Of a stretch of 64,000 bases of DNA, positions 9,232 through 15,529 are shown piece by piece (position 1 is the stretch's first letter; the number at the start of each line of letters is the position of its first letter). The DNA is taken from assembly GCF_014644415.1 (NCBI RefSeq), contig NZ_BMKQ01000001.1, positions 3,237,217 to 3,301,216 on the forward strand, given 5' to 3'. Position numbers and translations under genes: made by a program. Source of the stretch: Marmoricola endophyticus (GTDB taxonomy: Bacteria; Actinomycetota; Actinomycetes; Propionibacteriales; Nocardioidaceae). A model generated the notes under the pieces. The model had not been told where the DNA came from, did not search any database, and was given only the letters and a program-made list of their open reading frames with translations.

Positions 9232-9409
9232 TCGGAACCTCTTGCGCATCGTCGAACACGTGCTCTAACGTCGCACCTGTGTTCGATCGAACGTGTGGTC
9301 GAGCGGCTCGCCTCCGAAACTGTCGGAGGGGCGCCGTAGGACTGACCTCATGAACGTCGAGCACGTAGTTCCGGCCCAGCGCACCGCTCCTTCCCCCGGA
9401 GGTCTTCCG

Positions 9410-9742
9410 ATGAGCACGATCACCATGACTCCCGCGTTCTCCGCCAGCACTCCGCTGCGACTCACCCGTCGCGGCAAGGCCCTGCTGCTGGCCACCTTCC
9501 TCGGCCTCGCGCTGGTCGCCATGGTCGTCCTCGGCAGCCTGGCCGTCGCCACGCGCGACGCCGGCCCCGCTGACTCCGTCCGGGTCGTGCAGGTCCAGCC
9601 CGGCGACACGCTGTACGCCATCGCCGGCGAGGTGTCCGAGCCCGGCCACGTCCGCGACATGGTGCAGCGGATCGAGGACCTCAACGCCCTCGACAGCGCG
9701 TCGCTCGAGGTCGGACAGCGCCTGGCGGTCCCGCGTCGCTGA
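9410..9742 (+). CDS. SOS-associated LysM membrane protein (Rv2719c/DivS-like)
   Basis: The 110-residue product has a short cytoplasmic tail, one membrane segment (K-A-L-L-L-A-T-F-L-G-L-A-L-V-A-M) and an outer LysM domain beginning V-Q-P-G-D-T-L-Y-A-I-A. GGAGG at 9398-9402 sits 7 bases before the ATG at 9410; an in-frame ATG at 9350 has no comparable ribosome site. Small LysM proteins next to lexA (Rv2719c in Mycobacterium, DivS in Corynebacterium) are LexA-controlled and delay division after DNA damage. Position, topology and the perfect SOS box support the same role here, though SDR gene 8379-9197 separates it from lexA. Confidence 0.82.
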   Translation: MSTITMTPAFSASTPLRLTRRGKALLLATFLGLALVAMVVLGSLAVATRDAGPADSVRVVQVQPGDTLYAIAGEVSEPGHVRDMVQRIEDLNALDSASLEVGQRLAVPRR

Positions 9743-11210: not shown

Positions 11211-11219
11211 TGTGGACAA
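11211..11219 (-). promoter_or_regulatory. DnaA-box match (TTGTCCACA)
   Basis: The minus strand reads TTGTCCACA, the exact actinobacterial DnaA box, 2 bases beyond the stop of the membrane-protein gene and about 680 bases from the DnaA-box-like row before nrdR. Confidence 0.4.
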
Positions 11220-11692: not shown

Positions 11693-11863
11693 GGGGCCAT
11701 TGTGACGCAGGAGGAAAGCTGTGTGCGGCAGCAGCGCCGTCCGCCGACACGCCGCACTGCTTCTGACACGCCGCGCTCCTGAGCCGCTGACCTGCGCGTT
11801 CGCCATCGGCCACGAGAAGTTCGCCGGAGTTGTTGCGCGGCGTGGACGGGCGGGCGTACGGTT

Positions 11864-11910
11864 CCACTACATCTAGTACTTACACCGCTGTAGTTCTCCA
11901 CATCTTGGTT
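11864..11910 (+). promoter_or_regulatory. pair of NrdR-box-like sites, 31 bp apart
   Basis: Two 16-bp sites, CCACTACATCTAGTAC (11864-11879) and TCTCCACATCTTGGTT (11895-11910), share the C-A-C-A-T-C-T core and resemble the NrdR box (acaCwAtATaTwGtgt). Their starts are 31 bp apart, three helical turns, the phasing known for NrdR boxes before Streptomyces nrdAB and nrdRJ. The first site fits better than the second. They lie within the 363-base stretch 11693-12055 that otherwise holds no gene. Confidence 0.6.
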
Positions 11911-11978
11911 CACAGGGGAGCGGCGGTTGACCACAGATGGTGCCACCGAAGTCCACAGATCGGCCCTCGTGATCCACA
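11894..11978 (+). promoter_or_regulatory. row of DnaA-box-like sequences before nrdR
   Basis: Four same-strand nonamers end in CCACA: TTCTCCACA (11894-11902, full match to TT(G/C)TCCACA), TTGACCACA (11927-11935, one mismatch), AAGTCCACA (11949-11957, two) and TGATCCACA (11970-11978, two). Starts are 33, 22 and 21 bases apart. The first overlaps the second NrdR-like box. A further one-mismatch copy (TTCCCCACA, minus strand, 12563 to 12555) lies between nrdR and nrdJ. Confidence 0.45.
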
Positions 11979-12055
11979 GGGTCGGTGAGCGGGACGGCAC
12001 TGTCGGTGGTCGGTGTTGTGCTGGATGCATGGACACCGAGAGGAGGACCCGCCCG

Positions 12056-12532
12056 ATGCACTGCCCGTTCTGCCCCAGCACCGACACCCGGGTCCTCGAC
12101 AGCCGCGTGGCCGAGGACGGCGGCGCGATCCGACGGCGCCGCACGTGCCCGTCCTGCGAGCGACGGTTCACCACCGTCGAGCAGATGCAGCTCATGGTCC
12201 TCAAGCGCAGCGGCGCGACCGAGCCGTTCACCCGCGACAAGGCGATCTCGGGAGTCCGCAAGGCGTGCAAGGGTCGCCCGGTCTCCGATGACGACCTGGC
12301 GCGCCTGGGCCAGACCGTGGAGAACGCGCTGCGTGCCGACGGATGGGCAGAAGTGCCGGCCCACGAGATCGGCCTGGCGATCCTCACCCCGCTGCGCGAG
12401 CTGGACGAGGTCGCCTGGCTCCGGTTCGCCAGCGTCTACCGCGCCTTCGAGTCCGCCGACGACTTCGAGTCCGCGATCGCCGAGCTGCGCGAGCCGCACG
12501 CGCCACCACCGCAGACCCTCACCGGGGTCTGA
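12056..12532 (+). CDS. nrdR: transcriptional repressor NrdR
   Basis: The 158-residue protein begins [17 protein letters not shown]. Four Cys (3, 6, 31, 34) form the zinc ribbon, followed by the ATP-cone domain (residues about 46-136) that senses ATP and dATP. NrdR represses ribonucleotide reductase genes when dATP is plentiful. The start is fixed by AGGAGG at 12041-12046 and the invariant N-terminus; the frame is open further upstream, but that part is not NrdR-like. The gene is followed by nrdJ after 93 bases, the usual actinobacterial order, and preceded by NrdR-like boxes that imply autoregulation. Confidence 0.97.
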
Positions 12533-12625
12533 CCACAGACCGCCCGGCGCACGTTGTGGGGAAGCGACGTGCGCCGGGCACCACACGACGAGAAGCAAGC
12601 AGCACACCACCAGGGGAGCAGTGAG

Positions 12626-15529
12626 ATGACCGAGATGATGGACAAGAAGACGGCCGGCGAGGGCGTCCGCATGGAGCGGGTGTTCTCCACCGAGGGCGTC
12701 CACCCCTACGACGAGCTCGACTGGGAGCGCCGCGACGTCGTCCAGACCAACTGGAAGACCGGCGAGGCCGTCTTCGAGCAGCGTGGCGTCGAGTTCCCCT
12801 CGACCTGGTCGCTCAACGCCTCCACCATCGTCACCACGAAGTACTTCCGCGGCGCGGTCGGCACGGAGGCCCGCGAGTGGAGCCTCAAGCAGCTCATCGA
12901 CCGCGTGGTGTCGACCTACGTCGACGCCGGCGAGGAGCACGGCTACTTCTCCGGCCCCGAGCAGGCCGAGATCTTCGAGCACGAGCTGACCTGGCTCCTG
13001 GTGAACCAGTACTTCTCCTTCAACTCCCCGGTCTGGTTCAACGTCGGCACCAAGAGCCCGCAGCAGGTCTCCGCCTGCTTCATCCTCTCGGTCGACGACT
13101 CGATGGACTCGATCCTGAACTGGTACAAGGAGGAAGGCTTCATCTTCAAGGGCGGCTCCGGCGCCGGCCTGAACCTCTCCCGCATCCGTTCCTCGAAGGA
13201 GCTGCTCTCCTCGGGCGGCACCGCGTCGGGCCCGGTGTCCTTCATGCGCGGCGCCGACGCCTCGGCGGGCACCATCAAGTCCGGTGGCGCCACCCGTCGC
13301 GCGGCCAAGATGGTCGTCCTCGACGTCGACCACCCCGACATCGTCGAGTTCGTCGAGACCAAGGCCAAGGAGGAGGACAAGATCCGCGCCCTGCGCGACG
13401 CGGGCTTCGACATGGACCTCGGCGGCGCCGACATCACCTCGGTGCAGTACCAGAACGCCAACAACTCCGTCCGGGTCACCGACGAGTTCATGCGTGCGGT
13501 CGAGGAGGGGACCGACTTCGGGCTGCGCGCCCGCGGCACCCACGAGGTGATCGAGACCGTCGACGCCCGCGAGCTGTTCCGCAAGATCTCCGAGGCGGCG
13601 TGGGCCTGCGCCGACCCGGGCCTGCAGTACGACGACACCATCAACGACTGGCACACCAACCCGGAGACGGGCCGGATCACCGCGTCCAACCCGTGCTCGG
13701 AGTACATGTCGCTGGACAACTCGTCCTGCAACCTCGCCTCGCTGAACCTGCTGAAGTTCCTCAAGGACGACGACACCTTCGACGCCGAGACCTTCGCGAA
13801 GGCCGTCGAGGTGATCATCACGGCGATGGACATCTCCATCTGCTTCGCGGACTTCCCGACCGCCCCGATCGGCGACACCACGCGCGACTACCGCCAGCTC
13901 GGCATCGGCTACGCCAACCTCGGCGCGCTGCTGATGGCGATGGGTCTGGGGTACGACTCCGACGGCGGCCGCTCGATGGCCGCAGCGATCACCTCGCTGA
14001 TGACGGGCACCTCGTACAAGCGCAGCGCCGAGCTCGCCGGTGTCGTCGGCCCGTACGCCGGCTACGCCCGCAACGCCGACGCCCACAAGCGCGTCATGCG
14101 CAAGCACCAGGCCGCCAACGACGAGGTGCGCACGCTGCACGTCGAGGACGCCCGCGTGCTCAAGCTGGCCACGCAGGCCTGGGACGACACGGTCAAGCTG
14201 GGCGAGGTCAACGGCTACCGCAACGCGCAGGCCTCCGTGCTGGCGCCGACCGGGACCATCGGCTTCATGATGGACTGCGACACCACCGGCATCGAGCCCG
14301 ACTTCAGCCTGGTCAAGTTCAAGAAGCTGGTCGGTGGCGGTTCGATGCAGATCGTCAACCAGACCATCCCCCGCGCGCTGACCAAGCTCGGCTACCAGCC
14401 CGAGCAGGTCGAGGCGATCGTCGACTACATCGCCGAGAACGGCCACGTCATCGACGCGCCCGGCCTGAGGACCGAGCACTACGAGGTCTTCGACACCGCG
14501 ATGGGCGCCCGCTCGCTGAAGCCGATGGGCCACGTGCGGATGATGGCGGCGGCGCAGCCGTTCCTGTCCGGCGCCATCTCCAAGACGGTGAACCTGCCGG
14601 AGAGCGCGACGGTCGAGGAGATCGCCGACGTCTACATGGAGTCCTGGAAGCTCGGGCTCAAGGCGACCGCCGTCTACCGCGACAACTGCAAGGTCGGCCA
14701 GCCGCTGTCCGACGGCAAGAAGAAGGCCGCCGACGAGGACAAGACGGAGGCCGCGCCGGTCGAGACCGAGGTCGTCGAGAAGGTCGTCTACAAGCCGACC
14801 CGTGCCCGCCTGCCGAAGTCGCGCAGCGCCCGCACGACGAGCTTCACCGTGGGCGGTGCCGAGGGCTACATGACCTCCGGTGCGTACGACGACGGCCGCC
14901 TCGGCGAGGTCTTCCTCAAGCTCGGCAAGCAGGGCTCGACCCTGGCCGGGGTGATGGACGCCTTCTCGATCGCGGTCTCGGTCGGCCTGCAGTACGGCGT
15001 CCCGCTGGAGACGTACGTCTCGAAGTTCACCAACCTGCGCTTCGAGCCGGCCGGCCTCACCGACGACCCGGACGTCCGGATGGCGCAGTCGCTGATGGAC
15101 TACGTCTTCCGCCGGCTGGCGCTGGACTACATGCCCTTCGACGAGCGCTCGATGCTCGGCATCCACTCCGCCGAGGAGCGCCAGCGCCACCTCGAGACCG
15201 GCTCGTACGAGCCGCCGATGGGTGACACCGGCACCAGCGACCAGCTGATCTCCGCCCCGGTGGTGGAGGCTCGAGAGGTGGTCGAGCCTGTCGAGACCCC
15301 CGCCGAGGTCGAGGCCGAGCTCCTCGCCACCGAGGACCTGGCCGACGAGGTGATCGCGGAGTCCGCCAAGCCCGCCCCGCGCGAGGCCCACACCTCCGCG
15401 GAGCTGATGGAGAAGCTCACCGGCACCGCCGTGGACTCCCCGCTGTGCATGACCTGCGGCACCAAGATGCGCCCCGCCGGCTCGTGCTACGTGTGCGAGG
15501 GCTGCGGCAGCACCTCCGGCTGCAGCTGA
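12626..15529 (+). CDS. nrdJ: class II (adenosylcobalamin-dependent) ribonucleotide reductase
   Basis: This 967-residue enzyme makes deoxynucleotides from ribonucleoside diphosphates using adenosylcobalamin, with or without oxygen. C357 (N-P-C-S-E-Y) and C368 (S-S-C-N-L-A-S-L) have the 11-residue spacing of the thiyl-radical and redox cysteines of NrdJ, and C151 (S-A-C-F-I-L) pairs with the latter. The C-terminus ends in a Cys-rich zinc-ribbon-like tail (M-T-C-G-T-K-M ... C-Y-V-C-E-G-C). AGGGGAG at 12612-12618 supports the ATG at 12626. The linker before the tail (residues about 880-895) is encoded by a copy of the chromosome's dispersed palindromic repeat. Confidence 0.97.
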   Translation: MTEMMDKKTAGEGVRMERVFSTEGVHPYDELDWERRDVVQTNWKTGEAVFEQRGVEFPSTWSLNASTIVTTKYFRGAVGTEAREWSLKQLIDRVVSTYVDAGEEHGYFSGPEQAEIFEHELTWLLVNQYFSFNSPVWFNVGTKSPQQVSACFILSVDDSMDSILNWYKEEGFIFKGGSGAGLNLSRIRSSKELLSSGGTASGPVSFMRGADASAGTIKSGGATRRAAKMVVLDVDHPDIVEFVETKAKEEDKIRALRDAGFDMDLGGADITSVQYQNANNSVRVTDEFMRAVEEGTDFGLRARGTHEVIETVDARELFRKISEAAWACADPGLQYDDTINDWHTNPETGRITASNPCSEYMSLDNSSCNLASLNLLKFLKDDDTFDAETFAKAVEVIITAMDISICFADFPTAPIGDTTRDYRQLGIGYANLGALLMAMGLGYDSDGGRSMAAAITSLMTGTSYKRSAELAGVVGPYAGYARNADAHKRVMRKHQAANDEVRTLHVEDARVLKLATQAWDDTVKLGEVNGYRNAQASVLAPTGTIGFMMDCDTTGIEPDFSLVKFKKLVGGGSMQIVNQTIPRALTKLGYQPEQVEAIVDYIAENGHVIDAPGLRTEHYEVFDTAMGARSLKPMGHVRMMAAAQPFLSGAISKTVNLPESATVEEIADVYMESWKLGLKATAVYRDNCKVGQPLSDGKKKAADEDKTEAAPVETEVVEKVVYKPTRARLPKSRSARTTSFTVGGAEGYMTSGAYDDGRLGEVFLKLGKQGSTLAGVMDAFSIAVSVGLQYGVPLETYVSKFTNLRFEPAGLTDDPDVRMAQSLMDYVFRRLALDYMPFDERSMLGIHSAEERQRHLETGSYEPPMGDTGTSDQLISAPVVEAREVVEPVETPAEVEAELLATEDLADEVIAESAKPAPREAHTSAELMEKLTGTAVDSPLCMTCGTKMRPAGSCYVCEGCGSTSGCS
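15277..15298 (+). repeat. dispersed GGTGGTCGAGC...GTCGAGACC repeat inside nrdJ
   Basis: The 22-base string, GGTGGTCGAGC joined to CTGTCGAGACC, has the same ends as the intergenic repeats at 38.8, 50.6 and 57.5 kb. Here it is in frame and encodes E-V-V-E-P-V-E-T in the variable linker between the catalytic body and the zinc-ribbon tail. Confidence 0.7.

Follow-up and report, generated by a model that had tools for sequence, protein, structure and literature searches.

The leader of the nrdR-nrdJ operon of Marmoricola endophyticus carries a row of five DnaA-box-like nonamers, all on the coding strand, with start-to-start steps of 12, 21, 22, and 21 bp and a G following four of them, and the first member of the row is merged with an operator box of the repressor NrdR. 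This observation is real and beyond chance. Motif and geometry tie the row to DnaA, whose binding there we infer, and on that basis it is probably a DnaA oligomerization array that regulates nrdRJ. The window, meaning the whole stretch of DNA analyzed, is 64,000 nt of the M. endophyticus assembly GCF_014644415.1 (NZ_BMKQ01000001.1, positions 3,237,217-3,301,216, forward strand). The original prediction of paired NrdR boxes combined with a row of DnaA boxes is borne out by conservation, by strand bias, by phasing, by a match to oriC, and by the lack of any such row at nrdAB.

The operon is read on the plus strand. The first gene, nrdR (12056..12532), encodes the Zn-ribbon plus ATP-cone repressor of ribonucleotide reductase (RNR) genes, scoring 151.7 bits against TIGR00244 with both the Pfam Zn_ribbon_NrdR and ATP-cone domains matched, and the second, nrdJ (12626..15529), encodes the B12-dependent class II RNR (NF005122, 1605.8 bits; TIGR02504, 613.6 bits). 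The inferred promoter has a -35-like hexamer TTGCGC (11833..11838) and, after an 18-bp spacer, a -10-like hexamer TACGGT (11857..11862); the pattern is conserved, TTGnnn-N17/18-TAnnnT being found immediately 5' of NrdR box 1 in 139 of the 155 loci that have a box pair. NrdR box 1, CCACTACATCTAGTAC (11864..11879), directly follows the promoter, and box 2, TCTCCACATCTTGGTT (11895..11910), lies exactly 31 bp past it, as originally predicted. In both, C4 and G13 are present, the two positions identified as essential by structural studies of S. coelicolor NrdR (PMC9110341). A pair with C4/G13 stands at the promoter in 155 of 171 loci examined, spaced by 31 bp in 97 and 32 bp in 57, and with a 16-bp box pair at the promoter and a Zn-ribbon/ATP-cone repressor encoded by it, the operon has the marks of NrdR control. 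In most relatives the -10-like hexamer ends 1-4 bp before box 1 starts, so transcription should begin inside box 1.

The row itself starts at box 2, whose left half is the first DnaA-like nonamer. Unit 1 (11894..11902) is an exact DnaA box, TTCTCCACA, and in most Nocardioides loci its place holds TTATCCACA, TTCTCCACA, or TTTTCCACA. Unit 2, TGGTTCACA (11906..11914), is weak and stands 12 bp after unit 1, where relatives have AGTTCCACAG or TAGTCCACAG at +11/+12. Unit 3, TTGACCACA(G) (11927..11935), comes 21 bp after unit 2, unit 4, AAGTCCACA(G) (11949..11957), 22 bp later, and unit 5, TGATCCACA(G) (11970..11978), another 21 bp on. The prediction had a perfect box overlapping an NrdR box and further nonamers at steps of 33, 22, and 21 bp; its coordinates and steps are exact and all the nonamers it listed are present, although the weak unit at 11906-11914 was overlooked. 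Compared with TTNTNCACA / TTGTCCACA, the window has one exact unit and four weaker ones with 1-2 mismatches, which makes it weaker than most of its relatives; an exact TTATCCACA, TTGTCCACA, or TTCTCCACA is present in the leaders of the majority of Nocardioides relatives. It also has a single step of 11-12 bp, the remaining steps being two turns.

The window contains 3 exact copies of TTSTCCACA versus 0.21 expected, a count reached in 0 of 100 shuffles, in keeping with the earlier estimate of fewer than one perfect box by chance; with one mismatch there are 18 versus 9.2 expected. Three copies of CCACAG with phased gaps are found once in the window and in none of 100 shuffles. Genome-wide counts were obtained by pattern searches of the genome, and the count of TT(G/C)TCCACA that had been proposed as a check gives 25 exact matches in 3.66 Mb, versus 7 for the reversed control. 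The strict CCACAG triple is present at two places in the genome, the nrdR leader and C1:1448696-1448773.

We examined conservation in 80 named Nocardioidaceae loci (Nocardioides, Marmoricola, Aeromicrobium, Kribbella, and relatives) and in the nrdR upstream regions of about 90 other actinomycete genomes, with 33 other sampled families represented. Downstream of box 2, the leaders of 77 Nocardioidaceae contain 357 units on the coding strand versus 13 on the opposite strand (shuffle mean 25), and 26 other families, sampled at one locus apiece, give 87 versus 7 (shuffle mean 7). Unit-to-unit distances peak at 11/12, 21-23, 32/33, 42/43, 53/54, 63/64, and 75 bp, with a best period of 10.5-10.8 bp, or about 10.6 bp. 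The nearest unit in relatives is most often 11 or 12 bp away on the same strand, leaving gaps of 2-3 bp, and pairs with such gaps and an 11-12 bp step are what E. coli DnaA favors by ChIP-seq (PMC11317965). Because shuffled leaders keep too few units, a shuffle control of periodicity power is uninformative and the phasing rests on the spacing histograms together with a flank control.

Under fixed phasing rules, 65 of 81 leaders have chains of at least 3 units and 21 of the 34 sampled families are represented among the carriers, with 0 chains on the minus strand, and the arrays run to five to seven units; the window's own chain passes with a looser core (five units) and fails with the strict core. 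Identical rules applied to both strands of 784 kb of flanking DNA (1.57 Mb of strands) find no chain of at least 3 units. The original prediction was to stand or fall with conservation in relatives, and conservation in that many families links the array to the RNR operon. Between pairs of related leaders, mismatches amount to 13% in the unit cores versus 44% between units, therefore the units are kept by selection. In the genomes sampled from the phylum's other classes there is no phased chain of this kind, and the array is missing in 13 of the 34 sampled families (f17, f18, f19, f26, f36, f4, f11, f3, and a few others). Since f19 and f17 are among these and retain both NrdR boxes, the array is not essential to nrdRJ.

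The likeness to oriC can be judged from columns that were not used in the search, as the search motif fixed only core positions 4-9 and left the others free. The free columns agree between the nrdR arrays and the dnaA-dnaN (oriC) regions of 30 genomes, with G0, T1, T2, G/A3, G10, and G11 in both, where the oriC stretches include some coding sequence from 9 of the 30 dnaA-dnaN loci in which the dnaN start went unrecognized. Column preferences in the two sets correlate at 0.77, and a flank profile trained on the nrdR arrays tells oriC hits apart from those in the background with AUC 0.75 (p = 4 × 10−46). The variant TTGTCCCCA, frequent in nrdR arrays, is also found in oriC. Same-strand spacings in oriC peak at 11/12, 21, 32/33, 43/44, and 54/55 bp.

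Two other exact boxes in the window, TTGTCCACA at 11219-11211 and TTCTCCACA near lexA at 7450-7442, both on the minus strand, had been predicted along with the row. Both are exact and present, but neither has a conserved counterpart or is part of the array: in the nrdR flanks of relatives, exact boxes do not outnumber those of the reversed control (17 versus 30), and none lies near the lexA stop in the 14 loci where lexA was found. We therefore reject them as members of the cluster. In the full-length loci of relatives there is a mild excess of exact TTNTCCACA at a distance of 0.3-2.5 kb ahead of nrdR, with 13 copies, all but one on the minus strand, at positions that are not conserved; the window's box at 11211-11219 falls in this zone, and the other nrdR flanks are almost empty. 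At a distance of about 1 kb from lexA, and transcribed in the direction leading away from that gene, 9293-9742 (+) encodes a small protein with a weak, below-cut-off match to the YneA cell division suppressor family.

Elsewhere in the same genome, the C1:1448696-1448773 site (about 1497-1578 of L236 in genome G000) is a second phased DnaA-box array, positioned just downstream of a PHP-domain gene (PRK07945, HHH plus PHP), and an array is upstream of the same gene in G045 (L245). Three Nocardioidaceae genomes have phased runs of four DnaA-box-like units in the pxpA-pxpB gap (L237, L243, L246), with steps of 10-12, about 21, and about 21, and these are candidate extra-oriC DnaA loci.

A one-mismatch box between nrdR and nrdJ, TTCCCCACA at 12563-12555 (-), was also predicted and is present, but it is the loop of a conserved RNA hairpin. 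The hairpin (12542-12579, +) covaries strongly, and on that ground the nonamer is rejected as a DnaA box. It is found in the nrdR-nrdJ gap of 57 loci, including L027, L028, and L058, with an invariant loop UGGGGAAG, a G-C closing pair, and a stem of 13-15 bp. In an alignment that leaves out three sequences with shifted stems, pairs are kept at 98.6%, 12 of 13 pairs have changes on both sides, and the covariation is 0.746 versus 0.23 shuffled. M. endophyticus and 12 of 12 g3 genomes searched have the hairpin; three g2 genomes and Kribbella do not, and it has no Rfam match. Hairpins with the same GUGGGGAAGC loop, likewise with no match in Rfam, also occur in the leaders of unrelated genes, which from their translations are NlpC/P60-like (L343, L345, L347) or PhoH-like (L349, L326). 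Because the loop recurs in this way, a common factor may recognize the GUGGGGAAGC-loop hairpin as a small regulatory motif in RNA.

If the array is used by DnaA, weak-to-strong boxes one, two, or three turns apart would put the DnaA molecules on one face of the DNA, an arrangement also seen in the same-strand runs of boxes at actinomycete oriC, and DnaA would fill the leader co-operatively, best boxes first. At unit 1, merged with NrdR box 2, NrdR and DnaA would exclude each other. The DnaA oligomer would block the early transcribed region and hold nrdRJ transcription back, until initiation has taken place and DnaA is titrated elsewhere or inactivated; when less DnaA is bound, its main effect might instead be to displace NrdR and so relieve repression. 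Given that the inferred start precedes the array, the oligomer most likely hinders early transcription. DnaA has been described in E. coli as a roadblock to RNA polymerase (PMC11317965), and high DnaA-ATP represses E. coli nrdAB (PMC8203912). Supposing that DnaA does regulate nrdRJ, we lean toward repression rather than antirepression, and the sign is uncertain because the known control of E. coli nrdAB by DnaA includes activation as well.

A bolder version, which we put forward tentatively and with more doubt than belief, is a composite NrdR/DnaA operator in many actinomycete families, where DnaA would extend along the nrdRJ leader as an orisome-like filament and drive NrdR off box 2. In S. 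coelicolor, NrdR requires dATP plus ATP for binding and boxes 1 and 2 are looped together. One switch could then read both the dATP/ATP ratio, through NrdR, and initiation readiness, through DnaA-ATP.

Four other explanations for the array deserve weighing. The one that survives best, though we consider it improbable, is that the array serves to titrate or store DnaA, datA-like, and that its location in the nrdR leader is accidental and of little consequence for nrdRJ. It gains from the similar phased arrays that are away from nrdR, by the PHP-domain gene of the same genome and in pxpA-pxpB of three relatives. What speaks against it is place: titration needs no particular location, yet the array stays with the nrdRJ promoter across 21 families, at a position fixed relative to the promoter and to box 2, with unit 1 merged into that box.

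Much less likely is that the units are an extended NrdR operator, with extra half-boxes for a larger NrdR assembly, even though the unit core CCACAG is the left half of box 2 in many families and helical phasing is a rule for NrdR boxes too (PMC12051234). The right half that an NrdR box needs is not conserved in the units, where G13 is at background (0.31 versus 0.30), and the TT(G/A)T and GG flanks are those of oriC boxes. The same NrdR also serves nrdAB, which does without an array: the genome's own nrdAB (C1:2610182, L265) has an NrdR box pair and a cobalamin riboswitch, that of a relative (L264) has the box pair, and neither has an array. We therefore reject extra NrdR boxes, and conclude that the array marks the B12-using reductase and not every NrdR target.

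It is less probable still that the repeats act in the RNA as regularly spaced C-rich segments, where Rho might load (a rut site) or an RNA-binding protein might attach. In favor of this, the array is part of what should be the 5' untranslated region, and in rut sites YC contacts can recur at intervals of 10-13 nt. Past box 2, however, C hardly exceeds G (C 0.33, G 0.30), so that a C-over-G bubble is lacking, the nrdRJ leader has no match in Rfam, and the units have conserved non-C positions with the same motif and double-helix period as oriC, which acts as DNA; on these grounds we discard an RNA repeat or Rho site. Least likely of all are sites of a direct-repeat response regulator such as MtrA, with its GTCACA-type motif, to which the 11-bp-step direct repeats typical of OmpR-family regulators would lend some fit. 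MtrA has been reported at mycobacterial oriC (PMC4451416), but the arrays run to five to seven units and have the wrong bases at positions 4 (T 65%, G 5%) and 5 (C 72%, T 7%; loosely selected units) for the GT of that motif, and MtrA is dismissed. This leaves DnaA oligomerization as the preferred reading.

Searches of the open literature, with few subscription journals included, turned up no account of DnaA acting at nrdRJ in actinobacteria. Control of RNR by DnaA is itself already known, having been shown for E. coli and proposed for B. subtilis and C. crescentus (PMC8203912), and what is new here is the putative composite NrdR/DnaA site and the oriC-like run in a leader that should be transcribed. 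The array suggests that replication start and dNTP supply are wired together at nrdRJ in many actinobacteria. If true, wiring of DnaA to dNTP supply arose around a different reductase class and a different promoter, with a new architecture in which a DnaA box is merged with the operator of the dATP-sensing repressor NrdR. The coupling of replication start to dNTP supply becomes open to direct test in a phylum whose members matter in soil and in industry, and the array would offer a natural one-turn DnaA array outside oriC for measuring assembly of the DnaA filament.

Among known systems, the operator part resembles one already described. We take family f19 to be the Streptomyces family. The S. 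coelicolor nrdRJ operator likewise comprises a pair of 16-bp boxes separated by about three turns, C4/G13 being conserved, ahead of nrdR-nrdJ (PMC9110341), but the f19 loci have both boxes with no array, and a box 2 without TCCACA.

The array-free family f4 is presumably the mycobacterial family. Experimental DnaA maps of M. tuberculosis and M. smegmatis give five main regions, with no nrd operon among them (PMC7738170). The likeness to the present case is that there are extra-oriC DnaA sites in an actinomycete (PMC7738170), and the difference is that 0 of 5 are at an nrd operon, in what is probably a family without the array.

The DnaA boxes of E. coli nrdAB are upstream of the promoter, whereas at nrdRJ both the conserved -10 and NrdR box 1 come before the array. 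The actinomycete operon encodes a class II reductase, with at most seven units downstream of the inferred start; furthermore, one DnaA-like box is merged with an NrdR box, and the promoters are not homologous. E. coli DnaA occupies sites upstream of nrdA and nrdD (PMC11317965), and the two systems share the presence of DnaA boxes at an NrdR-controlled RNR promoter, among them two on one strand with 3 bp between them (PMC8203912, PMC11317965, PMC12176259).

The closest likeness in form is to the low-affinity arrays of oriC, on the left and right in E. coli and in actinomycete dnaA-dnaN. The nrdRJ array differs from these in that it is no origin but part of a gene leader, about 1 Mb away from dnaA in the M. 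endophyticus genome. It has the same same-strand one-turn steps and the same mixture of box strengths, and with the oriC of its own class it shares both motif and spacing.
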